The position numbers and the translations under genes are program-made. From positions 1 through 46,669 of the forward strand of contig NZ_JABXKQ010000040.1 in assembly GCF_017114945.1 (NCBI RefSeq): a stretch of 46,669 bases of DNA, read 5' to 3'. Shown piece by piece: positions 16,336 through 35,847 of this stretch (positions are counted from its first letter, which is position 1; each line of letters opens with the position of its first letter). Below the pieces are notes generated by a model. It was not told the DNA's origin and made no database searches. It saw only the letters and a program-made list of their open reading frames with translations. The DNA is from Nostoc sp. JL34. GTDB taxonomy: Bacteria; Cyanobacteriota; Cyanobacteriia; Cyanobacteriales; Nostocaceae.

Positions 16336-19300
16336 TTAGCTTTCGGAAGTTTCCTGGGAGAACTTCTTATGGATAGTTCTTGTGGATTCCCCATCAGCAG
16401 CTACCGTTATGAGATAGTCCATTAAACCATCTGAAAAAGGAAGACGTAAGTGGAAAGTACCATCGGGTTTGATTTTGATGGTATGACCACCAATATTTAC
16501 GTTTGTATTTGGTTCGGTTGCTCCGTGAATAATCAACTCAGCATCTGCCACAAACCAAAAATCTCCGTGGGGACGACTGAAGACCCGAACGTTAGGGGAA
16601 CGGGCTATGAGTAACCAGGGTAGTTTACCGCCGTAGGCATGACTATCAGCGATATAGCCAATTTCAACTATGTAGTCGCGATCGCTCACGGGAATAGCCA
16701 CAAAGCGATCGCGTGCTACCTCTTCACATTCATATTGCTGTACAAGCTGCGGACTTTGATAACTCAAGTCAATGCCAGTTACATCGTAGAGTCGCACTAC
16801 CAGTTGTGAAGCACCCTGTTGTTGCAGCGCTTCGGACTGAGTTTTGGAAATGTGCCAAGAGACATAAGCCCATTTGGGAGTGCGGGGTGTGAGGACAATA
16901 CTGCTCTCTTCTTCAGGGATCTCTTCTTCAGGGATTTCTGCTTCTACATTTGCCCAGCCAATAGCTGTTTCGCTTGTTAAGGCGACATTTTCAACTGGAG
17001 AAACTGTAGAATCTGTTGTGGGATCTGGATTAACAGGACTGAAGACACGAACGATCGCCGAATGGGCGATGAATAACCAGTGATCGCCATCAGCGACATA
17101 GCCAATTTCTGCTATGTAGTCGCGATCGCTGATGGGAATTTCCACAAAGCGATCGTGTGCTGTCTCTTCACATTCGTACTGCTGGACAAACTGAGGACTT
17201 TGATAACTCAGGTCTATGCCAGTCACATCGTATAGCCGCACTACCAATTGAGAGCCGCCCTGTTGTTGCAGTTCTGCTTTCTTGGTTTCGGAAATCTCCC
17301 AAGAGACTTCAGCCCATTGCCAAGTGCGGGGTGTGAGCAAAATACTGCTCTCTTCTTCACCGATCTCTTTTTGGGCATCTACCAAGTCAATATCTGTTTC
17401 ATCCGCGTTCGCCACAGGATCAACTATGGGATCTGGATTAACAGGACTGAAGACACGAACAATCCCTGAACGGGCAATAAATAACCAGCGGTCGCCATCA
17501 GCAGCATAGCCAATTTCAGCTATGTAGTCGCGATCGGTGACGGGAATATCCACCAGCCCATCGTCTGCTGTCTCTTCACATTCATACTGCTTTAGAAGGT
17601 GAGGAATTTGATAACTCAGGTCAATGCCAGTCACATCGTAGAGCCGCACTACCAATTGATAGCCGCCCTGTTGCCGCAGTGCTGCTTTCTTGGCTTCGGA
17701 AATCTCCCAAGAGACATGAGCCGATGTATAAGTATGTGGTGTAAGCACAATACTGCTCTGTTCATCTACATCTACCAAACCAATAGCTGTTTCGGCTGCG
17801 ATTGGCTCATGATCAACTGTAGTATCAGTTTCTCTTTGGGGATTTGATGCCCAAGTGCTAGCCCAGGCTCCCATCCCTGCACCTGCTGCTAAAGCCCCAA
17901 TGGCGGCAAAATCTGTAGAGTCAGTTTCAGCAACACCTTCCCCAATAGTCGGCTCTGCTGGAGATTCTTCCTCTAGCAAATTGACAGGGGGTTCGGCTGC
18001 ATCTGCTACCACGTTCAACAAATCGTCTGGCAATTCTGGCAAATCGAGCAGTGAAGATGTTTGTGCCGTTGATGGTTCCACATCGGCTGCCACTTCTTCA
18101 GACTCTGGTAAGGGCAATTCATCTACTGAGTCTGTATCTTCAGTTGAGGTAATACTATCTAGCCAGTTCAATTCTGCCTGAAGTTCCTCATCCATCTGAT
18201 CTTCATCAATTGCTGTGTCCCAATATCCAAAATCAGATGTGACTTCTGGCACATCTGGTAATTCTGGGAGTGGGGCTGTCACGTCAGATGAAGGCAGTTG
18301 CACATCAGATGCCTCTTCTGGAATATTATTAGCCAGGTGAGGGTATGAAGTATTGACTACAGCTGCTGGGGCTTCTATATCCCATGCAACTTCATCAGAC
18401 TCAGGATGATTTGTCTCTGGATAATTATTTAGCTCAATTGTCTCATCAATGGCGTCTGTTTCTGTTTCCTTGTTGGTAAAGGCAGACCAGGTAGCCGCGC
18501 CGATGCCCGTTGCTAGAGCCGCACCACCGGTTAAAGCGGCGGCTCCCAAGTTGTTATTTTCTGACGATCCATTAGCTACGCTCGATGTGCCTTCATAGAG
18601 GTTAGAGGTACCATTAGTTGTCTCTTTTACTAAATTTGATGTTCCCTGAGTAGCATTCTGGGTCAGGTCAGATTGTGTTTGAGCATAGATGTTGAAAGGA
18701 GTGCGATCGGGGTTTTCTTGCTCTTGGAAGTGCGATACTGCCTGCTCCTCAGGCATCGCTCCATTCAGGGAGGAAACTGTGCTGGCATCTAGCACCGTCG
18801 TTTCTGTATCTTCTGTGCTGGGTGGATGAGGATTTGATTCTGGTAAGTTGTCTGTTTTCTCAGTAGATAATGGGCGTTTTCCTAGAGTCCACCATAGTAA
18901 CCCTCCAGCTACAGCCAGAAAAAATACTGGTAGCAGCAACCAAATTGGTGTTTCTTTGTTTACAATGGGGCTATTTTGTGCAGGAGCAGCCACAAAGGGC
19001 TGTTCGCCAAATGCAGAAGTAGTCGCATTAGGGGAAGGCGTAGCAACTGGTGTCGTCTGGGCACTGGGAGAAGGCGTAACAGCAGGTTGTAATACGCTGG
19101 TTGCGATCGCTTCTGCTTCAGCAGTTCTACCTTGTTCTATAGCCCGCTGTCCTGGAGGTGCTAGGGTATAGCCGAGAAAATCAACTATGGTTAAGCTGGG
19201 ATTTTTTTTGTAAACGTAAACTAAAGGTTGCGAGAAGGGATATCTAGCATCATCTGGCAAAGCTTGATGTAATTGCAGAACTCGCACACCTTTCAACTTG

Positions 19301-20001
19301 GATACCTGATTAGCTAGCACGTAGCTGATACCGTCTTTGCCCAGTTGTTTGATGATTTCTGCGGTATTATCCTCAGTTACTTGGGTCGCATTAGACCCTG
19401 TAGCAAAGTCAGCAGTTTTGAAGGCTGGATAAGTACGAAAAGTATCGCGAGTTTCACTCGTGTTAGGGTGATCGATTAACCGAATCTTCCCTGAAGTCCC
19501 TCCCAATTGTGACCAATTTGTAATTTGTCCCCGGAAAATCCGGGCAAATTGCTTACTGGTCAAACTTCCTTTGAAAGGACTATCTGCACCAACCACGATC
19601 GCAATCTTCTCACGGCGCAAGCGAACTTGCTCTAGTCCTTGGGCTTTTTCTGCTGGCGTTAACCCACGCCCCATTGCTACGATGTCGACTTTGCCATCTA
19701 GCAAATCTTTCAGTGCCGTATTAGTGCCGTTAGCAGCAACTTCAACCTTTGTGCCGGCAAACTGTTTTTCAAAACTTTCTTTCAGGCTTTGGTTAATTGC
19801 ACCCAAGCTACTGGAACCGTCAATCCGCACTGTTGATCCATTCTGCACTGTTTGTGGCAGTGGAAAAGTGGTAGCTTCAGGTGTAGATTGTGCCAGCATC
19901 GGTGCTGATACCACCAGAGTTGCTGCCATCGGGGTTGTAGCTAAAGCAACCCATAATACCAGCCTGAGTATCGAAGTATCTTTTTTTTCTTGTTGCCACA
20001 T
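16336..20001 (-). CDS. PstS-like substrate-binding domain, transmembrane segment and three DUF4912 modules
   Basis: 1221 aa. The N-terminus has a membrane signal (about residues 13-38). Residues about 50-290 form a PstS-like periplasmic binding domain (TVRIDGSSSLG, DIVAMGRGLTPAE, GQITNWSQLGG, DGISYVLANQ). A Pro/Thr linker leads to a membrane helix at about 353-377 (WLLLPVFFLAVAGGLLWW). Then come 370 acidic low-complexity residues with two Gly/Ala-rich segments (about 484-509 and 697-720). DUF4912 modules start near 748, 883 and 1031; each has an SSI(V/L)LTP start, VSW(E/H)IS, LVVRLYDVTGIDLSYQ, RDYI.EIGY and VRVFS. The tail is the usual DUF4912 end (ELIIHGATEP, GTFHLRLPFSDGL). If the signal is used and the helix spans once, DUF4912 would be cytoplasmic and the binding domain periplasmic. 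The role is unknown; a sensor or anchor is possible. Confidence 0.85.
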   Translation of the reverse strand: MWQQEKKDTSILRLVLWVALATTPMAATLVVSAPMLAQSTPEATTFPLPQTVQNGSTVRIDGSSSLGAINQSLKESFEKQFAGTKVEVAANGTNTALKDLLDGKVDIVAMGRGLTPAEKAQGLEQVRLRREKIAIVVGADSPFKGSLTSKQFARIFRGQITNWSQLGGTSGKIRLIDHPNTSETRDTFRTYPAFKTADFATGSNATQVTEDNTAEIIKQLGKDGISYVLANQVSKLKGVRVLQLHQALPDDARYPFSQPLVYVYKKNPSLTIVDFLGYTLAPPGQRAIEQGRTAEAEAIATSVLQPAVTPSPSAQTTPVATPSPNATTSAFGEQPFVAAPAQNSPIVNKETPIWLLLPVFFLAVAGGLLWWTLGKRPLSTEKTDNLPESNPHPPSTEDTETTVLDASTVSSLNGAMPEEQAVSHFQEQENPDRTPFNIYAQTQSDLTQNATQGTSNLVKETTNGTSNLYEGTSSVANGSSENNNLGAAALTGGAALATGIGAATWSAFTNKETETDAIDETIELNNYPETNHPESDEVAWDIEAPAAVVNTSYPHLANNIPEEASDVQLPSSDVTAPLPELPDVPEVTSDFGYWDTAIDEDQMDEELQAELNWLDSITSTEDTDSVDELPLPESEEVAADVEPSTAQTSSLLDLPELPDDLLNVVADAAEPPVNLLEEESPAEPTIGEGVAETDSTDFAAIGALAAGAGMGAWASTWASNPQRETDTTVDHEPIAAETAIGLVDVDEQSSIVLTPHTYTSAHVSWEISEAKKAALRQQGGYQLVVRLYDVTGIDLSYQIPHLLKQYECEETADDGLVDIPVTDRDYIAEIGYAADGDRWLFIARSGIVRVFSPVNPDPIVDPVANADETDIDLVDAQKEIGEEESSILLTPRTWQWAEVSWEISETKKAELQQQGGSQLVVRLYDVTGIDLSYQSPQFVQQYECEETAHDRFVEIPISDRDYIAEIGYVADGDHWLFIAHSAIVRVFSPVNPDPTTDSTVSPVENVALTSETAIGWANVEAEIPEEEIPEEESSIVLTPRTPKWAYVSWHISKTQSEALQQQGASQLVVRLYDVTGIDLSYQSPQLVQQYECEEVARDRFVAIPVSDRDYIVEIGYIADSHAYGGKLPWLLIARSPNVRVFSRPHGDFWFVADAELIIHGATEPNTNVNIGGHTIKIKPDGTFHLRLPFSDGLMDYLITVAADGESTRTIHKKFSQETSES

Positions 20002-20453: not shown

Positions 20454-21560
20454 TTATTTGAGATAACAATGACAATCTGGCTTATCAATCAGTGACTCCA
20501 CCAAGGCATTTAGAGCAGTTGCAGCTAAAGCACCACCTCCCAAAGTCCCTTCAACTGTAATATAAGGTATCCCTTGTTGCATCAGTTGTCGCTTGGCTGC
20601 GGGAGCATGGCTAAAGCCAATGGGCATTCCAATTACTAATGCAGGCTGAATTTTCTGGTTGCTAACCGCTTCACAAGCTTCCAGAAGTACTGAGGGAGCA
20701 TAACCAACTACCAGCACACAACCATTACTTACTTGCTGCAATTTTGATCGCCATTCTCGATGTTGCCAAAAGGCCAGTTCTGCTTCTGTGGCGGTGGTAA
20801 TATGGGGGTTATCAATCAAGGTTTCGGTGCGGCATCCCAAGTGCAGTAATCGGGTTTGATCTAAAGCAGCAGCAACCGTTTGGGTATCGACAACAATTTG
20901 ACAGCTTGAAGATAGGGCTTCTCGACTAGCTGCGATCGCATCTCGACTCAATTTGATAAAGGACACCAAACTGACATCGCCACAAGCCAAAACCAATTGA
21001 GAAATTAAATGCTGTTCAATTTCCGAACGCTGAGACAAATCAGGTAGTAAGCGTTGTAGCGATTCGGTAAAAGCTTCTGAATGAGTATGAATTTCAGCAT
21101 CCAAGCCACTCCAGAGATTTTCCAATCCTCCCAATCCAGCTTGAGTTTCGACATCGAGTAACTTCAGTTGTGCCAAAACTTCCGCTTGGATAATTTGACA
21201 ATGGCGATCGCGCCCCAATAATCCTTCTAATGCTGATGCAGTTTGCCGCAGTTGAGAAATTTGTTGCATCACCGCGCGATATTGCTGCTGGAGTTGTCCC
21301 ATGAGGTTAACGGTTGTATCGGCTTCTGGTTCCACTTCCAAAATATTACGGATATGGTTTAGCTGAAAACCTTGCTGCTTGAGTGCGACAATCCGTTGCA
21401 ACCGGAGGACATCTTTTTTGGTATAGAGACGGTAATTGCTGCGCGATCGCACTGGTTGCGGTAACAGTCCCAATTGATGGTAATGGCGCACCATTCGCGG
21501 AGTCAAACCGCCGCCAACTGCATCGGTGAGTTCTTTGATAGTTAAGCAACCAGCGTTCAT
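20454..21560 (-). CDS. coaR: CoaR-type cobalt-responsive MerR regulator with precorrin isomerase-like domain
   Basis: 368 aa. Residues about 5-75 are a MerR winged helix (LTIKELTDAV, MVRHYHQLGLLP, NYRLYTKKDVLRLQRI), followed by a dimerisation helix to about 115. Residues about 170-355 match the CobH/CbiC precorrin-8X methylmutase fold (VLVVGYAPSVLLEA, GMPIGFSHAPAAKRQL, TLGGGALAATALNALV). The protein ends in DCHCYLK, a Cys-His-Cys motif (363-365). This architecture is that of Synechocystis CoaR, which senses cobalt, also through the terminal Cys-His-Cys, and activates the exporter gene coaT. There the two genes are divergent neighbours. Here the P1B-4 ATPase gene lies 12.4 kb away, also divergent, with a MerR-type dyad in its promoter. 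The regulator is cytosolic and DNA-bound. Confidence 0.92.
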   Translation of the reverse strand: MNAGCLTIKELTDAVGGGLTPRMVRHYHQLGLLPQPVRSRSNYRLYTKKDVLRLQRIVALKQQGFQLNHIRNILEVEPEADTTVNLMGQLQQQYRAVMQQISQLRQTASALEGLLGRDRHCQIIQAEVLAQLKLLDVETQAGLGGLENLWSGLDAEIHTHSEAFTESLQRLLPDLSQRSEIEQHLISQLVLACGDVSLVSFIKLSRDAIAASREALSSSCQIVVDTQTVAAALDQTRLLHLGCRTETLIDNPHITTATEAELAFWQHREWRSKLQQVSNGCVLVVGYAPSVLLEACEAVSNQKIQPALVIGMPIGFSHAPAAKRQLMQQGIPYITVEGTLGGGALAATALNALVESLIDKPDCHCYLK

Positions 21561-23535: not shown

Positions 23536-23963
23536 ATTATTTATGAATAATTTGATATGTTACCTGTTGCCTATTTCGCAAGGATTTGTAATACCTATAG
23601 TAACTTTTAAAAAACTTGATTTTTAGATATAGCTTATACTTATCCTAGCTTTATTGATTTGAATTAATGCCAATATTTGATAATTCTTAAAAGACTAATC
23701 TTTGAAAACATTTTTATGAACTTTATCATTTCTTTATATAAATTTCTTTCAAGAACCTGTATTATTTAAACATGGTGAAATTGCAAAACAAACCAAAAAC
23801 AAATGTAGTTATGCACATTAGATTAGTGTGTTTTAACAGCAAGTTTGATAATAAAAATCATCAGATGTTTATTATTTAAAGCATCTAACTATTTTTATTA
23901 TTTGGTTAAGTAGAACAAAGATTTCACTGTTCCAAAACCATTTTGTACAAAGAAGGAAAATTT

Positions 23964-24230
23964 ATGTCAGTTGTAACACTTGAACAACAAACAGTCGCAG
24001 TTATGACCGAGTTAGCTGATGAAGAAATCAGTGGAATTGTTGGAGGAGGATACAAATCAATTTTCAAGCCCGAAACTAAGATCAAGTCTGAAGCCGAAGG
24101 TAAAAATGTAATATCAACCATTCAAGTTGGTAACGCATATGCAACTGGTGGTGGAGATGCTGTTGTTAAGCAAGATTCATACAGCGAGATTAATAACAGC
24201 AAAAACAAAGTGAGAATTTTTGGCTATTAA
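23964..24230 (+). CDS. Double-glycine leader peptide, tandem array copy 1
   Basis: 88 aa from ATG at 23964 with GAAGGAAAA upstream, kept in all three copies; the ATG at 23943 is not. The 28-residue leader MSVVTLEQQTVAV...ELADEEISGIVGG ends in the double-glycine cut site. The 60-residue core starts GYKSIFKPETKIK and holds VGNAYATGGGDAVVKQDSY and EINNSKN. It has no Cys and is rich in Gly, Asn, Ser and Thr. The GGGxAxVxQ pattern faintly recalls curlin repeats, so a beta-rich or amyloid-like product is a possibility. It is the first of three copies with an exact 328-bp period. Confidence 0.8.
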   Translation: MSVVTLEQQTVAVMTELADEEISGIVGGGYKSIFKPETKIKSEAEGKNVISTIQVGNAYATGGGDAVVKQDSYSEINNSKNKVRIFGY

Positions 24231-24291
24231 TAAGTTATCTCTCTAGTCCGCTCTGCTTTGACTTATCACATTAACAAAGGAAGGAAAATTT

Positions 24292-24561
24292 ATGTCAGTT
24301 GTAACACTTGAACAACAAACAGTCGCAGTTATGACCGAGTTAGCTGATGAAGAAATCAGTGGAATTGTTGGAGGAGGATACAAATCAATTTTCAAGCCCG
24401 AAACTAAGATCAAGTCTGAAGCCGAAGGTAAAAACGTAATCTCAACCATTCAAGTTGGTAACGCATATGCAACTGGTGGAGGAAATGCCATTGTTAAGCA
24501 AAGTTCGTATGGCGAGATTAATAACAGCAAAAACGATGTGAAAATTTGGGGTGGTTACTAG
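24292..24561 (+). CDS. Double-glycine leader peptide, tandem array copy 2
   Basis: 89 aa. The leader is identical to copy 1, and the first 40 residues or so of the core are identical too. Differences are confined to the end: GGGNAIVKQSSYGEINNSKNDVKIWGGY against copy 1's GGGDAVVKQDSY and FGY end. The ribosome-binding site (GGAAGGAAAA) and the spacer before it are also duplicated, so each copy can be translated by itself. The near identity points to recent duplication, with change only in the C-terminal part. Confidence 0.8.
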   Translation: MSVVTLEQQTVAVMTELADEEISGIVGGGYKSIFKPETKIKSEAEGKNVISTIQVGNAYATGGGNAIVKQSSYGEINNSKNDVKIWGGY

Positions 24562-24619
24562 GTTATCTCTCTAGTACGCTCTACCTTGAGTTATAACCTC
24601 AACAAAGGAAGGAAAATTT

Positions 24620-24892
24620 ATGTCAGTTGTAACACTTGAACAACAAACACTCGTAGTTATGACCGAATTAGCTGATGAAGAAATCAGTGAAATCGTTGGA
24701 GGAACCTACGAAAGTCTAGCTTTCAAGAGCAGGACTAAGGTTGATGTTAAAGTCAAAGGTGGAAACGTAATAACATCGGTTCAAGTTGGTAACGCACTTG
24801 CAACTGGTGGAGGAAAGGCTGTTGTTGAGCAAAACTCATATAACGAGATTAATAACAGCAAAAACAATGTGAAAACTTGGGGTGGTTACTAG
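24620..24892 (+). CDS. Double-glycine leader peptide, tandem array copy 3 (diverged)
   Basis: 90 aa. The leader differs from copies 1 and 2 at a few sites (LVVMTELADEEISEIVGG). The core starts TYESLAFKSRTKVDV and keeps NVI, VQVGNALATGGGKAVVEQ, NEINNSKN and the KTWGGY end. Start and ribosome-binding site lie exactly 328 bp after those of copy 2. A further spacer remnant follows the stop (to about 24938), showing where a fourth unit would begin. The core is more diverged than the leader, as expected for a peptide family with selected cores. Confidence 0.8.
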   Translation: MSVVTLEQQTLVVMTELADEEISEIVGGTYESLAFKSRTKVDVKVKGGNVITSVQVGNALATGGGKAVVEQNSYNEINNSKNNVKTWGGY

Positions 24893-25196
24893 GTTATCTC
24901 TCTAGTACACTCTGCCTTGAGTTATCACCTCAACAAAAGTCACTTTAACAGTTTGTATTGCCAAAAAATTTTCCATCATGATTTGTATTATCACTACAAA
25001 TCAAAACATCACTAAGCTATTAAGTATGCAAGTTACACATTATTTCGTTAAGTCATTTATAAATCAGTAGTCCTTCGCCAATTGCTACGAACAACTGACA
25101 AAGGACTACAGATGACCTTTACGAATAAGTGTACAGACATCTTATAACGTAGTGGTCTGACTATTTCTGGCATTACAACTTACGACAACATTACAC

Positions 25197-25402: not shown

Positions 25403-25645
25403 ATGTCTAACATCACTCTTGAACAAGAAGAGCTTGCAGTTATTACAGAGTTGGATGACGAAAAAACGGTTGCCCTCGTAGGAGGAATTTCTTGGAAACC
25501 ACCACTAAAATGGCCGAAACCACCAAGACCTGAGCAACCGGAATCTTACCCACCTAAAGGCTATGGTGCTTTGATAAACCTAAAGATTGATCTTGATGTT
25601 GATCTTGATCTTAATCTTGGCAAGCTTCTTGGTGGCCTGTTGTAA
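25403..25645 (+). CDS. Double-glycine leader peptide, precursor 6 (Pro/Trp/Lys and Asp/Leu core)
   Basis: 80 aa; ATG at 25403 follows GACGGAAGGA. The leader MSNITLEQEELAV...LDDEKTVALVGG is 28 residues and clearly related to the tandem array leaders. The 52-residue core is different: ISWKPPLKWPKPPRPEQP, a basic Pro/Trp-rich part, then GYGALINLKIDLDVDLDLNL with alternating Asp and aliphatic residues, and LGKLLGGLL at the end. It has no Cys. The shared leader with an unrelated core is typical of precursor families that use one exporter. Confidence 0.78.
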   Translation: MSNITLEQEELAVITELDDEKTVALVGGISWKPPLKWPKPPRPEQPESYPPKGYGALINLKIDLDVDLDLNLGKLLGGLL

Positions 25646-25861: not shown

Positions 25862-26166
25862 AAATGCTGTAAAAAGTTGGCTGGATTTCTACTGAATTTA
25901 TAAGTAAAGGCTTCTTCGCTGAGAATTAAATTCATGTATGAAAGATCAAAGATTTAACAATGTTTAATTTTTAATTTTCCGACTTCTCATAAGATGATAT
26001 GATAGTTTAACTTCTATTTCTGAGCATTAATACTGTCAAATAAGCAAACAATTGTATTGCTTATTTGATATTTAGGCTTGCAACTGCCAGTGATTGCAGC
26101 AGCAGTATTGTACTCACTCAAAACTGTTTTTTGTTTTCATTCCCATAGAGATTGGGACGGTGTTCG

Positions 26167-27606
26167 GTGATTAATCAAAAAAACGACCTGTTCCGCAAAG
26201 AAGCTTTAGAGCGTGCTTCTTCGCCTGAAGAACTAGATCAAATTATGCAGGTAGTCAGCCCGAAAAAGTGGCTACCTCTAGTTGCTGTTGGTTCGTTGGT
26301 GGCAACGGGGCTGACTTGGAGTTTTTTAGGTCGAATCCCAATTACGGTGACGGGTACTGGAATCATAGTCTATCCCAGTACAATTACCTCATTCCAGTCA
26401 CCGATCGCAGGTAAATTGCGAACAATCAACGTCCGAGTTGGCGACTATGTAAATAGAGGAGATGTGCTGGCGACGCTAGACCAAAGCGAACTGATGAAAC
26501 AGCTACAACTAGTCCGCTCTAAATTAGGGCAACTACAAACAGAAGATCGTGCTGTGAGCTTAGTCCAAGTACAACGGCAAAATGCAGACAAAGAAGCGAT
26601 TAAACAACAACGCCAATCTTTGCAGCAAAACCTCCAGGCGGTACAGAAACTCACCCCAATTTTAAGAGAGAAAGGGCTAAATTCGATTCAACGCGATCGC
26701 GCCAACCAAACCCAAAGCTTACAAGCACTGCGGGATCTCTTACCTACCTTCAAACAGAGATTGACCAACCGCCAGCAGCTATTGCAGGAGGGAGCAATTT
26801 CTGGCGATACAGTTTTACAGTCACAGCAAGACTACTTAAATGCTGTGACACAAATTAATGAAGCCGAATCACAAATCAAACAACTCGATGTCAAAGAAGC
26901 AGATGCCCAACGACAATACTTAGAGAATTTGAACTCAATTAAAGATTTGCAAGCGCAGTTAAAGCAACTAGATAGTAAAGAAGCGACAGCCGCGCAACAA
27001 GACTTAGAAACTGTAACCAACCGCAAAAAAGAAATTCAGGAAGTCCAGCGGAATATTGTGCAATTAGCACTGCAACTATCGAGCAACAGCTTAGTCAAGA
27101 GCAGTTACTCTGGACGAATTTTAGAAATCTCCGCAAGTCCTGGACAGGTTGTTTTACAGGGTACACCCATAGGAGCGATCGCTGCACAAAAGCGATCGGC
27201 TCAACCTGTGAGTGTGGCATTTTTTCCCGTTGGTGATGGTAAGCAAATTCAGCCAGGGATGAAGTTACAAGTTACACCTAGTACAGTGCAACGCGAACGC
27301 TTTGGTGGCATCATCGGTGCTGTCACAGATGTGTCAGCTTTTCCCGTGACTAAAGAAGGTGCATTAAGTGTAGTAGGCAATTCCGAATTTGTGGAAGCTT
27401 TGATGTCACAAGGGCCACAGATGCTAATTACTGCGCGACTGCAACCAGACAATTCGACCTTTAGCAATTACAAATGGTCTTCTTCCCAAGGGCCACAGAT
27501 GAAAGTCACTTCTGGAACGACTACCTCAGTCCAAGTCACTGTGGAAGAACGCGCCCCGATTACTTTTGTTCTACCGATTCTAAGATCCTGGAGTGGCATT
27601 TCGTGA
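26167..27606 (+). CDS. HlyD-type periplasmic adaptor of an NHLM-like peptide export system
   Basis: 479 aa from GTG at 26167; a TTG at 26152 is also possible. The N-terminus NDLFRKEALERASSPEELDQIMQVVSP matches my memory of the NHLM bacteriocin-system secretion protein family. One membrane helix lies at about 35-57. A biotinyl-lipoyl-like half motif (SPIAGKLRTINVRVGDYVNRGDVLATLD, about 78-105) is followed by about 200 residues of Gln-rich coiled coil, then the returning lipoyl half and beta-barrel (SGRILEISASPGQVVLQGTPIGAI). It would link the inner-membrane ABC transporter to an outer-membrane channel, which is not encoded here. It belongs with the precursor peptides upstream and the ABC fusion gene downstream. 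Confidence 0.88.
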   Translation: MINQKNDLFRKEALERASSPEELDQIMQVVSPKKWLPLVAVGSLVATGLTWSFLGRIPITVTGTGIIVYPSTITSFQSPIAGKLRTINVRVGDYVNRGDVLATLDQSELMKQLQLVRSKLGQLQTEDRAVSLVQVQRQNADKEAIKQQRQSLQQNLQAVQKLTPILREKGLNSIQRDRANQTQSLQALRDLLPTFKQRLTNRQQLLQEGAISGDTVLQSQQDYLNAVTQINEAESQIKQLDVKEADAQRQYLENLNSIKDLQAQLKQLDSKEATAAQQDLETVTNRKKEIQEVQRNIVQLALQLSSNSLVKSSYSGRILEISASPGQVVLQGTPIGAIAAQKRSAQPVSVAFFPVGDGKQIQPGMKLQVTPSTVQRERFGGIIGAVTDVSAFPVTKEGALSVVGNSEFVEALMSQGPQMLITARLQPDNSTFSNYKWSSSQGPQMKVTSGTTTSVQVTVEERAPITFVLPILRSWSGIS

Positions 27607-27746
27607 TATTGGCAATGAGAGGAATGAGGAAGAAATTATTAAAAATTTTACCCATCGAATCAATCTTGACGCTGTACTAGAGTGCGGAAATTACTTAAAT
27701 AAGAATGCATTTTGGCGTACTGAGAAAACAATGTATCTAATTATCT

Positions 27747-28019
27747 GCGGAAAACACTAAAATGAATACGCGATCTACTGAAATGAGAAGGCATTCAGGC
27801 ATTTTGCTTGCGGAAAACACCAAAATGAATAAACGATCTCTTGAAATGAGAAAGCAATATGTCTTTTTGCTTGCTGAATCTACTGAAATGAGTCCGCGAT
27901 TTACTGAAATGAGAAAGCATTTAGGCAAAATGAGAAAGCAATATGCCTTTTTGCTTGCTGAATCTACTGAAATGAGAAAGCATTTAAGCAAAATGAGAAA
28001 GCAATATACCTTTTTGCTT
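27747..28019. repeat. 13 x 21-nt periodic repeat between the adaptor and ABC genes
   Basis: Blocks starting at 27747, 27810, 27873, 27957 and ending at 28019 have lengths 63, 63, 84 and 63, all multiples of 21 nt, with words such as CTACTGAAATGAGAAAGCA and TTTTTGCTTGCTGAATC recurring. Because the period is 7 codons, both strands stay open. The plus strand could encode a heptad-patterned 117-aa peptide (27762-28115) with EMRKHLS KMRKQYA FLLAEST units, but there is no good ribosome-binding site, so it is not called as a gene. Confidence 0.7.
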
Positions 28020-28257: not shown

Positions 28258-31200
28258 ATGTTCTGGCGAAATCTGCAAAATATATTAGGGCGCTTGCGTA
28301 AAAACAAGCGGTGTCATACTCCTACTCTGCTGCAAATGGAGGTAGTAGAATGCGGCGCTGCTGCTTTGGGAATTATTCTCGGTTATTACAATCGCATTGT
28401 CCCATTGACAGAACTAAGACAAGCGTGTGGTGTCTCGCGGGATGGAGTTAGTGCCTTAAATATCTTGAAGGCTGCCAGAAATTATCGACTCAGCGCTAAA
28501 AGCTTTAAAACCAACTTAGCTGGCTTATTGCAGTTAAAATTTCCCTACATTGTATTTTGGAACTTTAACCATTTTTTAGTAGTAGAAGGAATCGGCAAAC
28601 AGCGAGTTTATCTCAATGACCCTGCTACTGGACGGCGCATCGTCTCCTTAGAAGAATTCAGCGGCGCATACACGGGTGTGGTGCTAGTTTTAGAGCCTAG
28701 TTCCGAGTTCCAGCAAGGAGGACGCAAGCCCAGCACAATCTTAGCTTTGTGGTCGCGGTTGCGAGGCTCCATTGGCGCATTACTTTACTGCGTGCTGGCA
28801 GGATTTTTGTTAGTAATTCCGGGACTGGCGCTACCTGCATTCTCCCAGGTATTTGTAGACAACGTATTGATTGAGCATCGGTATGAGTGGTTGCGTCCCC
28901 TAATTTTAGGCATGATCTTTACAGCCGGACTCAGTGGATTTTTGACGCTGCTACAGTTGCAGTTTTTGCGTCAAATGAAAATTAAATTGTCCGTGGGCAT
29001 GGAGAGTAAATTTCTCTGGCACATTTTACGCCTACCCATGAGTTTTTACGATCAGCGGTATGCTGGGGAAATCAGTAGCCGTATGCAACTCAACGACAGC
29101 ATCGCTAATATGCTTTCTGGTGAATTAGCGACTACAGCGATCGCAACAGTATCAGTATTTATATATGTAGTGGTGATGCTGCAATATGATGTTGTACTAA
29201 CTTTAATTGCGATCGCCTTTGTCATTATCAACCTTGCCGCTTTACAGTGGGTAAGAGGGCGGCGCATAGATGCCAATATCAAACTCATCCAAGAAGAGGG
29301 AAAAGTTCGCGGCGTAGAAATTTCTGGTCTTCAGAGTATGGAGACGCTAAAAGCATCTGGATTAGAGTCAGATTTCTTCTCCCGTTGGGCGGGTCACTAT
29401 GCCAAAGCCATTAACACCCAGCAGGAATTAGAGGAAACAAACCAGACAATAGGTATTTTACCATCTTTTCTGTCAGCGATCGCTTCGATGCTGCTTTTAG
29501 CTGTAGGCGGTTTGCGAGTCATGGATGGAGCCTTGAGCATCGGCATGTTAATAGCCTTTCTCGGCATGATGCAAAGGTTTTTTGCCCCAGTAAGTAATCT
29601 CATCAGCCTGGGGAGCCAACTCCAAGAGATGGAAGGTAATCTGACTCGCCTTGATGATGTCTTATGTAACCCTATTGACCGGCAGTTGCAGCAGGGAGGC
29701 AGGGAGGCAGGGGAGCAGGGGAGCAGGGGAGCAGGGAAGAAAGAGGACAATTGCAATCTTTCCCCTCTGCCCCTCTGCCCCTCTGCCCCCTTGCCCAAAC
29801 TCCAGGGGTATGTTGAATTACGCAATGTGACATTTGGCTATAGCCAAATTGCCCCGCCGTTAATTGAAAATTTTAATCTTTTGCTCAAGCCAGGGCAGCG
29901 AGTTGCCTTGGTGGGTGGGAGTGGTTCTGGTAAGTCTACTGTTGCCAAACTTTTATGTGGACTTTACGAACCGTGGCAGGGAGAAATTCGATTCGACGGC
30001 AAATCTAGAGAGCAAATTTCTCGCCAGGTACTAGCCAATTCTATTTCTGTTGTAGAGCAAGAGATTTTGTTATTTGCTGGCAGCGTCAGAGACAACTTGA
30101 CGCTTTGGGATACTACCATACCTGACAGTCATCTTGTCCGAGCTTGTCAAGACGCAGCGCTTCACGATGTAATCCTTTCACTGCCTGGAGGCTATCATGC
30201 TGACCTTTTGGAAGGTGCTACTAATTTGAGTGGTGGTCAGCGACAGCGGCTAGAAATTGCCCGTGCTTTGGTGAATAATCCCAGTATCCTAATCATGGAT
30301 GAGGCCACCAGCGCCCTGGATGCCGAAACAGAAAAGACCGTCAGTCGTAATCTGCGGTTGCGCGGTTGCACTTGCATCATCGTGGCGCATCGACTCTCAA
30401 CTATCCGAGATTGTGATGAAATTATTGTCCTCGATCGCGGCAAGATAGTCCAACGGGGAAGCCATGAAGAATTGCAGCAAGTTGAAGGGCCGTATTTACA
30501 ATTAATTCGCAGTGAGGGAGCAGGGGAGCAGGGGAGCAGGGGAGCAGGGGAGGCAGGGGAGGCAGGGGAGGCAGGGGAAGAAAATACTTCCTTGTCTTTG
30601 TCTTCCTTGTTTCTCTCATCTCCCTCATCCCTCTTGTCCTTCGCAAATCTCAAAGGACAACACTATCGTTTTCAATGCAATGAATCGCTACTGCTAAATG
30701 ACCCAGAGACAATTTGGCTGGTAAAATCTGGTTATTTGGCGCTATTTGCGATCGCAGTCAATGATGGCATTCCAGAAGGCACTCGTCGCTATTTATTTAG
30801 TAGCACAGCCGGACAGGCGATGTTTGCGATTGCACCAAGTTTAGCGGGTAAGCAGCAAGAGGTTTTAGCAGTGTCGCTGGAGGAGACAGAAATTCTCAAA
30901 GTATCCAGAGCAGACTTTAACCAGTTGTTTGCTGACGCTAATAAAGAAGTAGTGTTTTTGATAGAACGCTGGATTGATCAATTAAGTTTGGTAATTGCTG
31001 GTATCACTACGCCAACGACACCAACATCGCTGCCAAAAATCCGCCAGTTCTCCTTAGTCGAAGACCAAATCTTCCAGCCACATCAAATATCGTGGGTGCA
31101 AATTCTCCAAGGACGTGCTAAATGGATGGGGTTTGCAGAATTGCCGTTAACTCCTGCCTCTGGAATATTGCCTTTAGCTGCAAATATGTGGTTACAAGCA

Positions 31201-33567
31201 AATAACACTGTGGAGTTGAAAAGTGTTAACACCGCAGAAATCGCAGATATCAATTCCCTGTTAGGTGGTTTGTCCCAACTACAAACCTACTTCCTCCACT
31301 GCATTAATCTCCTACAACGCCAGGAGATGGATGCAGAATTACTAAGATTTCAAGCCAGAGAACGTCTTGAAAGCCAAGTGATGCAAGAGACGTTAGCAGA
31401 ATTAGCATCTGTATTGCCACAGCCAAAGTCAGACGGGCTAAATAATAGTTTAGGATTCAGTAGTAATCTTGATGCAACTGACCCAAATCAAGCCTTACTA
31501 ATTGCTGCTGGTGCTGTGGGACGAGCATTAGGAATTAAAATTTGTCCGCCAGCTGCCTCAGAAGATTCTAATCGAGTCCAAGATCCTGTAGAAGCGATCG
31601 CTCGTGCTTCGCGTATCCGCGTGCGGCGGATTCAGTTGCGGGACAATTGGTGGCAAAAGGATTGCGGGGCGATGTTGGCATTTACGCTTGCCGATAAACA
31701 ACCAGTGGCACTATTACCAGTGTCTGATACACGTTACAAACTCTACGTTCCTGGGGAACAAAGGACTATCTCTGTCGATGCACGCATAGCAGCAGTCCTA
31801 GCTAAGACTGCCTACGCATTCTATCGACCTTTACCTGATAAAAAGCTGAAAACTTTTGATTTACTTCAGTTTGCTCTCCAAGGACATTACAAGGAACTAA
31901 TTATAGTTTTAGTAATGGGAATTACCATCAGTCTGTTAGGAATGCTAACACCTCAAGCTACGGCTATCCTGATCGATAAAGCGATCCCAGATGCTAATCG
32001 AGGCTTGTTGAGCCAAATTGCTGTTGGTTTAGTGGCTGCTGCCTTTGGTGGAACGCTGTTTCAATTAGCCCTTGGGTTTGCCACAATTAGGCTGGAAACT
32101 TTTGCCGATTCCTCCACCCAAGCCGCAGTGTGGGATCGATTATTAAACTTGAAGGTTTCCTTTTTTCGCTCTTTCTCAGTTGGTGACTTGGATTCTAGAG
32201 TCACGGCTATTACTCAAATTCGCCAGCGACTGGGTAACACAGTCTTAAAAACAATTTTCTCCAGTTTGTTCTCACTACTAAATTTGGGATTGTTATTTTA
32301 CTACAATGTTTCCTTAGCTCTCATAGCTTGTGCAGTGGCACTGGTAAATATTGCCGTCACTATCATCTCTGGTACTCTGATTGTCCGTAAAGTTCGCCCA
32401 TTACTAGAGTTACAAGGACAAATTTTTGGCGTGATGGTGCAGTTAATTAATGGAGTTGCCAAACTCCGAGTCGCCAAAGCTGAAGCCCGCGCTTTTGCCT
32501 ACTGGGGTAAACAGTATACACATCAACTGAAATTAATGCTGAGTACCCAAGGCATTGAAGACAGCCTCGCGGTGATCAATCAAGTATTACCTGTGTTAAC
32601 CACTGCTGCTCTCTTCTGGTTTGCTACTAGCTTAATTGGGCAATCCCAAACTCCTGGAGGAGGTGGTTTATCCACTGGCACTTTCTTAGCATTCAACGTT
32701 GCTTTTGGCACGTTTATTAATGGAGCCACTAGCTTAAGCAGCACAGTTGTGGAAGTTTTGCAAGTCTTACCCTTGTGGCAACGGGCCCAACCAATTTTGC
32801 AAGCTGAACCAGAAATTAGTTCTGCTCAAGCAGATCCGGGTAGGCTATCGGGTAAATTAGTTGTAGACCGGGTAACTTTCCGCTATCGCGATGATGGCCC
32901 CTTGACGTTGGATAATGTCAACATTCGGGCTGAACCAGGAGAATTTATTGCCATTGTTGGGCCTTCTGGCAGCGGTAAATCAACTTTATTAAGGTTACTT
33001 TTGGGGTTTGAATTCCCGAAATCTGGCACGATTTACTACGACGGACAAGACTTAGCTTCTTTGGATGTCCATGCTGTACGCCGTCAATTGGGTGTGGTAC
33101 TGCAAAATAGTCGGTTGATGTCAGCCTCTATTTTCGAGAATATTGCCAGTGGTGCTTTGGTGACGATGGACGAAGCTTGGTCAGCAGCCCAGATGGCAGG
33201 TTTTGCAGATGATGTTGCAGCAATGCCCATGCAGATGCATACAATCGTCAGTGAGGGAGGTAGTAATCTTTCTGGTGGACAACGACAACGGCTGTTGATT
33301 GCTAGAGCGTTGGTGTTGAAACCCCGGATTTTGCTATTCGATGAGGCGACTAGCGCTTTAGATAACAGAACCCAGGCAATTGTTAGTGAAAGTTTACAAC
33401 AGCTAAAGGTAACTAGGGTTGCGATCGCTCATCGCCTCAGTACTATTCAAAACGCTGATCGAATTTACGTACTTGCAAATGGCAAAGTAGTGCAGCAGGG
33501 TAGTTTCGTTGAACTAGGAAATCAATCAGGGCTATTTGCACAACTCATGATGCAACAGTTGCTTTAA
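28258..33567 (+). CDS. Fused NHLM-type exporter: C39 peptidase-ABC transporter joined to a second ABC transporter
   Basis: 1769 aa. Part 1 (1 to about 750): C39 peptidase with Cys32 (QMEVVECGAAAL), His105 (NFNHFLVV) and Asp121 (YLNDPATG); an ABC membrane domain; an ATPase with Walker A GGSGSGKS (553-560) and LSGGQRQR (from 657). Part 2 (about 800-1769): the cyclic-nucleotide-domain-like N-terminus of the second NHLM transporter (IWLVKSGYLALFAI), a second membrane domain, Walker A GPSGSGKS (1568-1575) and LSGGQRQR (from 1671). These halves are usually separate genes of about 720 and 950 aa. The joint (about 752-795) is low-complexity sequence from a G-rich intergenic repeat, and a second such insert lies at about 480-516 between membrane domain and ATPase 1. 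It should cut leaders at VGG and export the six upstream peptides. Confidence 0.9.
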   Translation: MFWRNLQNILGRLRKNKRCHTPTLLQMEVVECGAAALGIILGYYNRIVPLTELRQACGVSRDGVSALNILKAARNYRLSAKSFKTNLAGLLQLKFPYIVFWNFNHFLVVEGIGKQRVYLNDPATGRRIVSLEEFSGAYTGVVLVLEPSSEFQQGGRKPSTILALWSRLRGSIGALLYCVLAGFLLVIPGLALPAFSQVFVDNVLIEHRYEWLRPLILGMIFTAGLSGFLTLLQLQFLRQMKIKLSVGMESKFLWHILRLPMSFYDQRYAGEISSRMQLNDSIANMLSGELATTAIATVSVFIYVVVMLQYDVVLTLIAIAFVIINLAALQWVRGRRIDANIKLIQEEGKVRGVEISGLQSMETLKASGLESDFFSRWAGHYAKAINTQQELEETNQTIGILPSFLSAIASMLLLAVGGLRVMDGALSIGMLIAFLGMMQRFFAPVSNLISLGSQLQEMEGNLTRLDDVLCNPIDRQLQQGGREAGEQGSRGAGKKEDNCNLSPLPLCPSAPLPKLQGYVELRNVTFGYSQIAPPLIENFNLLLKPGQRVALVGGSGSGKSTVAKLLCGLYEPWQGEIRFDGKSREQISRQVLANSISVVEQEILLFAGSVRDNLTLWDTTIPDSHLVRACQDAALHDVILSLPGGYHADLLEGATNLSGGQRQRLEIARALVNNPSILIMDEATSALDAETEKTVSRNLRLRGCTCIIVAHRLSTIRDCDEIIVLDRGKIVQRGSHEELQQVEGPYLQLIRSEGAGEQGSRGAGEAGEAGEAGEENTSLSLSSLFLSSPSSLLSFANLKGQHYRFQCNESLLLNDPETIWLVKSGYLALFAIAVNDGIPEGTRRYLFSSTAGQAMFAIAPSLAGKQQEVLAVSLEETEILKVSRADFNQLFADANKEVVFLIERWIDQLSLVIAGITTPTTPTSLPKIRQFSLVEDQIFQPHQISWVQILQGRAKWMGFAELPLTPASGILPLAANMWLQANNTVELKSVNTAEIADINSLLGGLSQLQTYFLHCINLLQRQEMDAELLRFQARERLESQVMQETLAELASVLPQPKSDGLNNSLGFSSNLDATDPNQALLIAAGAVGRALGIKICPPAASEDSNRVQDPVEAIARASRIRVRRIQLRDNWWQKDCGAMLAFTLADKQPVALLPVSDTRYKLYVPGEQRTISVDARIAAVLAKTAYAFYRPLPDKKLKTFDLLQFALQGHYKELIIVLVMGITISLLGMLTPQATAILIDKAIPDANRGLLSQIAVGLVAAAFGGTLFQLALGFATIRLETFADSSTQAAVWDRLLNLKVSFFRSFSVGDLDSRVTAITQIRQRLGNTVLKTIFSSLFSLLNLGLLFYYNVSLALIACAVALVNIAVTIISGTLIVRKVRPLLELQGQIFGVMVQLINGVAKLRVAKAEARAFAYWGKQYTHQLKLMLSTQGIEDSLAVINQVLPVLTTAALFWFATSLIGQSQTPGGGGLSTGTFLAFNVAFGTFINGATSLSSTVVEVLQVLPLWQRAQPILQAEPEISSAQADPGRLSGKLVVDRVTFRYRDDGPLTLDNVNIRAEPGEFIAIVGPSGSGKSTLLRLLLGFEFPKSGTIYYDGQDLASLDVHAVRRQLGVVLQNSRLMSASIFENIASGALVTMDEAWSAAQMAGFADDVAAMPMQMHTIVSEGGSNLSGGQRQRLLIARALVLKPRILLFDEATSALDNRTQAIVSESLQQLKVTRVAIAHRLSTIQNADRIYVLANGKVVQQGSFVELGNQSGLFAQLMMQQLL
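29691..29797. repeat. G-rich/C-rich repeat inside the exporter gene, first copy
   Basis: Repeated GCAGGGAG/GCAGGGGA units at 29691-29746 are followed at about 29759-29797 by CCCCTCTG units, which can fold back on the G-rich part. The frame stays open and encodes Gly/Glu/Arg- then Pro/Leu/Cys-rich residues (about 480-516) between the first membrane domain and ATPase. Confidence 0.85.
30512..30580. repeat. G-rich repeat at the fusion joint of the exporter gene, second copy
   Basis: GCAGGGGA and GGCAGGGGA units run from 30512 to 30580 and are read as repeated EQGSRGAG and EAGEAG. A T/C-rich stretch (to about 30640) read as Ser/Leu follows. This lies exactly between the first and second transporter halves. 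Confidence 0.85.
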
Positions 33568-33685: not shown

Positions 33686-33768
33686 GCAGGGGGCAGGGGG
33701 AGGCAGGGGAGGCAGGGGAGCAGGGGAGCAGGGGAGGCAGGGGAGTAGGGGAGGCGGGGAGAAAGAGG
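33686..33768. repeat. G-rich repeat downstream of the exporter gene, third copy
   Basis: About ten GCAGGGGA/GGCAGGGGA units lie between the exporter gene and coaT. They are the same repeat family as the two copies inside the exporter gene, here in its usual intergenic position. The rest of 33568-33939 holds the coaT promoter. Confidence 0.85.
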
Positions 33769-33939: not shown

Positions 33940-35847
33940 ATGCTCTACCCCCAACGTTTGGGCCAATTCACCAGAGAACACGCAGATACCGTAGCTGCAC
34001 TTTTGTGTGGATTCCTATTATTTCTCGGATGGTTCGCCTTGCATCTCGGTTGGTTGGGGTTGGCATTCCTGCTGCTACCTGCTGCTTATATAATTGGTGG
34101 TTACGAAAGTGCGCGGGAGGGATTGACTACCCTCTTCAAAGAAAAGGAACTTGATGTAGATTTGCTGATGATTGTCGCTGCCATTGGTGCTGCTAGCCTC
34201 GGCTTATGGCGAAGAGAATATCATCTAATTATTGATGGGGCAATTTTGATTCTGATCTTTGCCATCAGTGGCGCATTAGAAGGCTATGCAATGGCGCGAA
34301 CTGAGCGGAGTATCCGCAGTTTAATGAGCTTGACGCCAGATACAGCAAGGGTTTTACATCAGGGAAGGGAAGAGGAAATTCCTATCAATCAGCTAAAAGT
34401 GGGTGATGAGATTGTCGTCAAACCTGGAGAGCTAATTCCCACTGATGGGATAATTTTATCTGGTTACAGCACCCTCAATCAAGCTGCAATTACAGGCGAG
34501 TCTTTACCTGTAGAGAAAACAGTGGGCGCAGAAGTATTTGCTGGTACACTCAACGGCTATGGTGCATTGCAAATTAAAGTACACAAACCAGCCCAAAGTA
34601 GTTTAATCCAGCGGGTGATTCGTTTGGTAGAACAGGCGCAGACAGAAGCACCACCTTCGCAAGAATTTATCGATCGCTTTGAGAAAGGATATGCCAAAGT
34701 TATTGTAGTCGCTGGGATATTACTGGCAACTTTACCGCCATTCCTCTGGGGTTGGGATTGGGAAACAACGATTTATCGCGCTCTTACCTTCCTTGTGGTG
34801 GCTTCTCCCTGTGCGCTGATGGCTGCAATTATGCCCACCCTGCTGTCGGGAATTGCCAATGGTGCAAGACAGGGGATTTTGTTTAAGAATGGGGCGCAGT
34901 TGGAGAAGATTGGCAAAGTCCGAGCGATCGCATTTGATAAAACTGGTACTCTCACAACCGGACAGGTGCAGGTATTCCAAATAATTTCCGTTAGTGAATA
35001 CACTACAGATGATGTATTAAAAACTGCTGCTAGTGTAGAATCATCTTCCGAACATCCCATCGGGAAGGCAATTGTACAGGCGGCTAGGGATTTAAATTGG
35101 GTTGGTGCAATCGAAGTGCAAGCCTTACCTGGACAGGGAATTGTTGGAATTGCTCAAGAACAACAGGTAATTGTTGGGAATGCCATTTTTGTGCAGCAGT
35201 ATGTGACAAATTTACCTGAAGAATTGCAAGAACTAGTTAAATCTTGGGAGCAAGAGGGTAAAACTGTGGTTTGGGTAGCACGGGGAGCAGAGGTGATGGG
35301 TGTAATTGCGATCGCAGATGAAGTAAGATCGCAAGCAGCCGCAACCATTAACCGGTTAAAGAAACTGGGAGTTGAACAAATTGTCATGTTAACCGGGGAT
35401 AATCAGGAAACTGCTCACAGTGTCGCCAAAGCAGTCGGAATTGATCGGGTTTATGCTCAACTTCTACCAGAAGATAAGCTAGATGTTATCCGCCGTCTAC
35501 AGCAACAATATCAAATGGTTGCAATGGTGGGTGATGGAATTAATGATGCACCAGCCTTAGCCCAAGCATCTGTAGGTATAGCGATGGGAGTGTCTGGTAG
35601 TGATGTGGCATTGGAAACCGCAGATATAGTACTGATGGCAGACAGGTTAGAAAAAATTGCTGTAGCGATACATTTGGGCAGGCGATCGCAACTCATCGTA
35701 AAGCAAAATATAGTCGTAGCGTTGGGTTTCATTATATTGCTTATACTAGGCAACTTTTTGGGAAATATTAACTTACCCATCGGCGTTATTGGCCATGAAG
35801 GTTCTACAGTGTTAGTTACCCTCAGTGGACTAAGATTACTGAAATAA
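33940..35847 (+). CDS. coaT: P1B-4-type heavy-metal exporting ATPase, probable cobalt exporter CoaT
   Basis: 635 aa, an inner-membrane ATPase without N-terminal metal-binding domains. The membrane motif is SPC (Ser289-Pro-Cys291 in VVASPCALM), not CPC, and the last helix has HEGST (His619-Glu-Gly), together the marks of P1B-4 pumps such as CoaT. Other motifs are TGES in the actuator domain, phosphorylated Asp333 in DKTGTLT, SSEHPIG, and GDGINDAPAL. In Synechocystis the CoaT pump exports cobalt and is activated by CoaR; other P1B-4 members move Zn, Cd or Fe, so the metal is inferred. The promoter dyad and the presence of coaR in the same window strengthen the call. The gene faces away from coaR, as in the classical divergent pair, but with the peptide locus between them. 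Confidence 0.88.
   Translation: MLYPQRLGQFTREHADTVAALLCGFLLFLGWFALHLGWLGLAFLLLPAAYIIGGYESAREGLTTLFKEKELDVDLLMIVAAIGAASLGLWRREYHLIIDGAILILIFAISGALEGYAMARTERSIRSLMSLTPDTARVLHQGREEEIPINQLKVGDEIVVKPGELIPTDGIILSGYSTLNQAAITGESLPVEKTVGAEVFAGTLNGYGALQIKVHKPAQSSLIQRVIRLVEQAQTEAPPSQEFIDRFEKGYAKVIVVAGILLATLPPFLWGWDWETTIYRALTFLVVASPCALMAAIMPTLLSGIANGARQGILFKNGAQLEKIGKVRAIAFDKTGTLTTGQVQVFQIISVSEYTTDDVLKTAASVESSSEHPIGKAIVQAARDLNWVGAIEVQALPGQGIVGIAQEQQVIVGNAIFVQQYVTNLPEELQELVKSWEQEGKTVVWVARGAEVMGVIAIADEVRSQAAATINRLKKLGVEQIVMLTGDNQETAHSVAKAVGIDRVYAQLLPEDKLDVIRRLQQQYQMVAMVGDGINDAPALAQASVGIAMGVSGSDVALETADIVLMADRLEKIAVAIHLGRRSQLIVKQNIVVALGFIILLILGNFLGNINLPIGVIGHEGSTVLVTLSGLRLLK

Follow-up and report, generated by a model that had tools for sequence, protein, structure and literature searches.

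A gene of Nostoc sp. JL34 predicted to encode both halves of an NHLM-type peptide exporter in a single chain

A gene on a 46,669-nucleotide stretch of DNA from Nostoc sp. JL34 (assembly GCF_017114945.1, contig NZ_JABXKQ010000040.1) holds both halves of an NHLM-type ATP-binding cassette (ABC) exporter in one frame, the C39 peptidase-bearing half, ABC1, being followed by the second half, ABC2. This stretch, hereafter the window, is all of C9, one of the 184 contigs that make up a 7.82 Mb assembly. The product is predicted to be a single protein of 1769 residues, likely a covalent heterodimer, which would cut double-glycine leaders and, by way of the HlyD-type adaptor next to it, likely export the peptides that the upstream genes encode. 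On the sequence evidence set out below, the probability of this reading is put at about 0.8.

Two transporter halves in one open frame

The gene runs from an ATG to a stop codon at positions 28258-33567 of the forward strand and is uninterrupted by any internal stop. At the GC content of the window (41.6%), a stop-free run of 1769 codons would arise with a probability of about 2e-48, and a chance open frame was ruled out on this ground. When the whole protein was compared with NCBIfam, TIGR03796 (ABC1) scored 1450.7 bits in two stretches, above its cut-off of 853.3, and TIGR03797 (ABC2) scored 1357.9 bits in three stretches, above its cut-off of 709.4. The ABC1 model was covered over its full length by residues 20-751, and the ABC2 model over positions 2-686 of 686 by residues 1078-1768; the ABC2 part taken alone gave 1017.8 bits. 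An earlier note on this DNA had claimed that both NHLM ABC transporters lie in one 1769-residue frame, and the two family matches bear this out.

Pfam recognised one Peptidase_C39, two ABC_membrane and two ABC_tran stretches in the fused protein. The Walker A, Q-loop, signature, Walker B and H-loop motifs, together with a catalytic Glu, are the standard landmarks of a working ABC ATPase, as are a Gln, a Cys, a His and an Asp of a working C39 peptidase. Both halves carry the residues of all these ATPase motifs, and the C39 residues are all present (Q26, C32, H105 and D121). The two membrane domains and two complete ATPase sites described in the earlier note were thus recovered; a pseudogene was rejected as an explanation, the catalytic motifs being intact in both halves. 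In an alignment of 65 fused and 61 split rows, the C39 Cys is kept in 64 of the fused rows, the remaining one having a gap at this position. One signature glycine of ATPase 2 is replaced in eight of the 65 fused rows (seven Val, one Ala) versus none of the 61 split rows.

The linker between the halves includes a tandem octamer array of period 8, so that the repeat reported earlier at the junction is real. A three-unit pattern of the repeat, with up to two mismatches allowed, had 160 overlapping matches in the genome versus none for the same pattern read backwards, and the linker therefore contains a repeat that is dispersed in the genome; so does the second inter-domain loop (29690-29796). We take this repeat to be STRR-like. 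PMC2670836 describes an STRR sequence able to form a hairpin and such sequences as not uncommon in filamentous cyanobacteria.

The junction in related genomes

A search of 217 Nostocaceae genomes with the ABC2 N-terminus gave 53 matches at an E-value of 1e-120 or better, and the 17 closest of these (at least 60% identity in the ABC2 N-terminus, the window gene included) are treated here as the fused clade. One open frame of 1505-1829 residues passes through the junction in 15 of the 17, so that the same fusion, which the earlier note had suggested looking for elsewhere, does occur in close Nostocaceae relatives; the remaining two genomes, G400 (1028 aa) and G330 (1009 aa), are split. Among the other 36 matches, at 52-58% identity, the frames are 974-1064 residues long. 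The 17 linkers have 17 different sequences and 14 different lengths (93-228 nt), and 15 of them are stop-free and a multiple of three, giving 31-76 codons. G-rich arrays with a Tandem Repeats Finder score of at least 52 were found in 15 of the 17; the linkers of G445 and G531 have weak arrays only (scores 34 and 33). The period of the G-rich arrays is 8 (or 16 or 24) in six linkers, 7 (or 14 or 21) in three, and 9 or 27 in six.

If each junction had a one-in-three chance of being in frame, at least 15 of 17 would be so with P = 4.5e-6; measured against the same-frame rate of distinct split junctions (37/79) the value is P = 5e-4, and kinship is ignored in both. For the split junctions identical linkers were counted once, linkers longer than 700 nt and the 17 fused-clade genomes were excluded, and L124, L137 and L140, with a negative distance between the halves, were set aside. 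Since the junction is in frame in 15 of the 17 despite such varied linkers, synthesis of both halves as a single protein is likely. Moreover, an ATG in the ABC2 frame of the linker is found in only one of the 15 fused genomes (G397, where it lies within the array) versus 78 of the 79 distinct split junctions (Fisher P = 1e-14, kinship again ignored). The linker of G405 has neither ATG, GTG nor TTG.

Several observations weigh against a single chain. In the six linkers with arrays of period 9 or 27 the gain or loss of a unit is frame-neutral, and the in-frame excess is for this reason weaker than the one-in-three figure suggests. The G400 and G330 linkers, each of 163 nt, are one base off frame, from which two proteins are expected; the assemblies comprise 10 contigs and one contig, respectively. 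At L051/L089 (G419, Nostoc sp. NMS4 by sequence match) an in-frame fused copy has lost about 242 residues of half 2, a deletion that reaches from the last part of membrane domain 2 into the first part of ATPase 2. A TTG codon is present in 13 of the 15 fused linkers, four times in that of the window, and in 12 of these 13 it lies 4-23 codons before the ABC2 domain; because of these codons, internal initiation keeps a place among the possibilities. Finally, 12 of the best 120 database matches listed are ABC2-only entries, at 80-96% identity (P0032-P0034, P0036-P0039, P0041, P0043, P0046, P0048 and P0050). Two of the 12, P0041 and P0048, were compared with their DNA. P0048 fits the out-of-frame G330. 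P0041 is the L081 locus of Brasilonema sp. UFV-L1, where a single open frame spans both halves; this entry seems to start at a CTG inside the open fused frame and is probably an annotation artefact, and the fusion may therefore be under-counted in databases.

These observations could be taken together to mean that the frame is open and yet two proteins are made, ABC2 being started at a linker TTG or the linker being cut, with the openness a mere by-product of the repeat. The placing of the TTG codons, an array unit that in the window linker is stop-free in every frame, and the entry of ABC2 alone from the one open frame of P0041 would fit such a scheme. It is nevertheless considered unlikely, as the in-frame count exceeds chance under both nulls, ATG is missing from 14 of the 15 fused linkers and kept at nearly all split junctions, the G405 linker offers none of the three start codons, and the genome's other fused copy, on contig C91, is without the entire barrel part of ABC2.

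The single-chain reading also has to be set against a slip-prone switch, in which the gain or loss of an octamer or of a G would move ABC2 in and out of frame and give a mixture of cells with fused and with split (or ABC2-poor) exporters. The unit here has eight bases, so that gaining or losing one puts the reading out of frame; each of the two out-of-frame relatives combines a long G-rich array with an offset of one base, and no two of the 17 genomes share a linker sequence. The in-frame excess, however, argues that out-of-frame states are short-lived, the frame-neutral arrays include those of G400 and G330, and the latter two cases may be homopolymer errors. Such a switch is therefore judged improbable. 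Equally little credence is given to its wider form, in which mobile G-rich repeats would serve as an interchangeable, slip-prone tether, arrays at the ABC1-ABC2 junction fusing the halves and changes of unit or G number flipping strains or cells reversibly between a covalent and a split exporter.

The earlier note had feared an assembly error in the repeat at 30512-30580 that hides a stop codon; a hidden frame shift was considered here as well. Short repeats are difficult to assemble, and the genome is in many contigs, but the array, at about 63 nt, is shorter than usual sequencing reads. Genomes with different arrays also keep the frame open across the junction, some of them in few-contig assemblies (G427, six contigs; G443, three contigs), and the open frame also stands on long contigs (P0002, 8.33 Mb; P0007, 9.91 Mb; P0018, 8.39 Mb). 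An assembly slip was rejected because relatives with different arrays are equally open, and an error confined to this one repeat is given only a very slight chance.

A plasmid search for a closer relative gave none near, its 17 records all being 60-80% identical. In a census of ABC1 over 388 genomes of the order, at least seven matches had frames of 1532-1823 residues; the census kept mostly two matches per genome and missed the fused gene of the window, and was used as a lead only.

The second half and comparison with known exporters

The N-terminus of half 2 had been described in the earlier note as cyclic-nucleotide-binding (CNB)-like. This was upheld in the predicted structure, where two barrels have the CNB fold, and weakly in the sequence, where PF00027 stayed below its cut-off (E 0.007; 16.7 versus 27.5 bits). 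Further along the AlphaFold2 model, a domain with the C39 fold has no conserved Cys or His at the expected catalytic places, and its N-terminal helix (residues 1079-1092) has at most one Cys at any column among 43 aligned rows. Two structures matched it at an E-value of 0.001 or better, both of HlyB (3zua and 7sgr). Counting against the assignment, a profile comparison with true C39 domains returned a probability of 0.4% and did not support it. Half 2 is predicted to carry a degenerate C39-like domain behind two CNB-like barrels, and the chain would then have one live and one dead C39 domain. The earlier claim of one peptidase thus holds in that a single C39 domain is intact, but half 2 is not simply peptidase-free if the model is right.

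The fusion itself is not new, because it has been published as group VII. In the relevant passages, Wang, Fewer and Sivonen (2011; PMC3140520) define this group as a short C39 ABC transporter fused to a peptidase-less ABC transporter, assign to it three of 145 cyanobacterial clusters (Nostoc punctiforme PCC 73102, Trichodesmium erythraeum IMS101 and Cyanothece PCC 7425) and derive it from group V through a recent fusion. The definition is repeated in a passage of PMC4558948 (2015), with no member in Subsection V genomes. A fused C39 ABC and second ABC, HlyD and small double-glycine precursors nearby are all found here. The trees described below, however, need at least four changes between the fused and split states, which differs from a recent fusion from group V, and the PMC3140520 passages do not mention a repeat-built linker or a C39-like domain in half 2. 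Neither was mentioned in any of the literature passages found, which is not proof of absence. What is added to the published fusion is the number of state changes, at least four on these trees, the dispersed repeat in the linker and the second loop, and the predicted C39-like fold in the 'peptidase-less' half.

In the NHLM systems as described in a passage of Haft et al. (2010; PMC2887384), ABC1 and ABC2 are separate members of a three-gene cluster. The same three parts (TIGR03794, TIGR03796 and TIGR03797) are present in the window, all above the NCBIfam cut-offs, but ABC1 and ABC2 form one gene. A further difference lies in the precursors: the five of the six that were scanned (precursors 2-6) had no NCBIfam or Pfam match at an E-value of 0.001, the NHLP and N11P families included.

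HlyB, whose C39-like domain gave the structural matches to the degenerate domain in half 2, is a half transporter and is not known to carry CNB-like barrels. Full-length ABCB1-type exporters have two membrane domains and two ATPases per chain, and their ATPase domains match the window protein strongly; they are eukaryotic and are not known to have peptidase or CNB-like domains. PCAT1 (a peptidase-containing ABC transporter, PCAT) and ComA have C39, membrane domain and ATPase in one chain, and their sequences (4ry2, 8vp3 and 8hf4) match the window protein best over the ATPase. Their chains are half-size, at 717-750 residues, whereas here both halves share a chain, in which one C39 domain is live and the other predicted to be dead. 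A passage of PMC6959990 describes a PCAT with two peptidase domains, two membrane domains and two ATPases. According to passages of PMC10986499, the cyanobacterial exporter HetC of Nostoc PCC 7120 carries a cyclic-nucleotide-binding domain at its N-terminus, and this domain binds ppGpp in vitro; contact with the substrate requires C39 and C39-like domains, whether they cut or not, and the authors suggest for HetC that a nucleotide signal gates transport. The window protein resembles HetC, as described there, in its predicted N-terminal barrels of this type on a cyanobacterial exporter half. In HetC, however, the barrel and the active C39 are on the same half, and here the barrels belong to the half whose C39-like domain is predicted to be dead.

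In the mechanism proposed, the single chain would fold on itself as an intramolecular heterodimer, its one intact C39 domain would cut the double-glycine leaders of the upstream precursors, and the peptides would be exported through the neighbouring HlyD protein. The linker would be a floppy cytosolic tether that joins ATPase 1 to the half-2 barrels and accepts low-complexity sequence of very many kinds while the frame holds; dispersed G-rich repeats would accumulate in it because of that tolerance. The degenerate C39-like domain might hold the precursor without cutting it, as a docking site, and the barrels might gate transport in response to a nucleotide signal by analogy with HetC (both after passages of PMC10986499). 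Covalent linkage would fix a 1:1 pairing, and so which halves pair, and would keep this pair apart from the two split NHLM pairs that the genome also encodes (contigs C158 and C121, each with an HlyD gene close by). As the one chain has a live C39 domain and another that is predicted to be dead, the transporter would be asymmetric, and each peptidase, ATPase and barrel could be mutated singly. As 17 genomes have 17 linkers, of which 15 are in frame, they constitute a natural experiment on what such a linker requires, and the same set lets one ask how dispersed repeats turn into protein.

Evolution of the fusion and its gene neighbourhood

Among the 120 best database matches, 60 are longer than 1400 residues. 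For the 65 fused and 61 split rows, the minimum on a FastTree phylogeny is six state changes, five of them forced by well-supported branches; P0019, P0031 and P0071 were left out of it as partial, and 11 of 79 named loci on account of coverage, identity, strand or stops. A quick IQ-TREE phylogeny of 24 fused and 31 split rows, a hand-picked subset of the 126, needs four. On these trees, the fused or split state would have changed at least four times, a count that does not separate fusion from fission. Topologies uniting all 24 fused rows in one clade (p = 3e-10) or the P0059 group with the Nostocaceae fused rows (p = 2e-120) were rejected in tests made with a quick search under LG+G4 and with groups chosen after the tree had been seen. 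P0059, whose name as listed ends in 'Trichode', falls in a fused clade other than that of the Nostocaceae rows. Because the fused rows come mostly from a protein search and the split rows from a genome scan, the frequencies of the two states are not readable from the tree.

The second fused exporter of the genome (P0023, 1521 aa) lies at G000:C91:47439-52291. Its alignment with the window protein covers only residues 1-753 and 1022-1769 of the latter, both barrels being gone with the frame kept, and this barrel-less form accounts for eight of the 120 listed proteins (P0021-P0025 and P0028-P0030, P0023 included; 1519-1540 aa). As the C91 copy falls inside the Nostocaceae fused clade in the trees, a single fusion probably underlies both copies of this genome. 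Its sole listed HlyD neighbour is a weak match in a 129-residue frame, and this exporter perhaps borrows another HlyD.

The features of the window gene and its neighbours are listed in Table 1. Upstream open reading frames (ORFs) with a double-glycine (GG) motif were found in seven of eight named fused relatives, L089 having none, and an HlyD match in all eight, that of L089 being partial.

Table 1. Coordinates of the exporter gene, its parts and associated features in the window.
Feature	Position	Strand	Basis
Fused NHLM ABC1-ABC2 exporter gene, 1769 aa	28258..33567	+	ORF, NCBIfam, Pfam
Intact C39 peptidase domain, residues 22-149	28321..28704	+	Pfam PF03412, catalytic residues
Membrane domain 1, residues 178-445	28789..29592	+	Pfam ABC_membrane
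In-frame arrays between membrane domain 1 and ATPase 1	29690..29796	+	Two opposite-sense arms, AGCAGGGA-like then CCCCTCTG
ATPase domain 1, residues ~514-750	29797..30507	+	Motifs
Fusion linker, residues 753-798, 138 nt, 46 codons	30514..30651	+	Junction comparison
Octamer array GGGAGCAG, 7.5 copies, inside linker	30516..30578	+	Tandem repeat scan
Two predicted CNB-like barrels, residues ~799-993	30652..31236	+	AlphaFold2 model, Foldseek, VIA-align
Long predicted helix, residues ~998-1052	31249..31413	+	AlphaFold2 model
Predicted degenerate C39-like domain, residues ~1076-1189	31483..31824	+	Structure comparison
Membrane domain 2, residues 1200-1500, approximate inferred span	31855..32757	+	ABC_membrane x2, TIGR03797
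ATPase domain 2, residues 1551-1699	32908..33354	+	Pfam ABC_tran, motifs
Third array of the same repeat kind, 3' of the exporter gene	33686..33761	+	Tandem repeat scan
HlyD-type adaptor of NHLM system	26152..27606	+	TIGR03794, 400 bits
Double-glycine precursor 1, 62 aa	22240..22428	+	GG motif
Double-glycine precursor 2, 95 aa	23165..23452	+	GG motif
Double-glycine precursor 3, first of three tandem copies, period 328	23964..24230	+	GG motif, repeat
Double-glycine precursor 4	24292..24561	+	GG motif, repeat
Double-glycine precursor 5	24620..24892	+	GG motif, repeat
Double-glycine precursor 6, 80 aa, Pro- and Asp/Leu-rich core	25403..25645	+	GG motif

The three tandem near-copies of a double-glycine precursor span 23947-24937, with 88% matches between periods. 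Between the hlyD and exporter genes, tandem repeats of 63 and 84 bases occupy 27746-28003, and a 117-residue frame over them had no family match. No peptide-modifying enzyme was recognised among the 20 ORFs of the window that were scanned with Pfam (56 ORFs being listed).

The bacteriocin cluster is flanked by a MerR-CbiC protein (20454-21560, reverse strand) and an SPC-type heavy-metal P-type ATPase (33940-35847, forward strand), a pair that presumably resembles CoaR and CoaT. In G417 and G383 (L183 and L187) the two genes are divergent neighbours about 200 bp apart; here they lie 12.4 kb apart with the whole cluster in between. MerR-CbiC stands beside the ATPase in six of 14 other loci, in which flanks of 1.5 kb were covered, and in G419 the fused exporter likewise adjoins the ATPase. 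Further upstream, at 16336-20001 on the reverse strand, a protein of 1221 residues combines a PBP-superfamily domain (PF12849) with three DUF4912 stretches.
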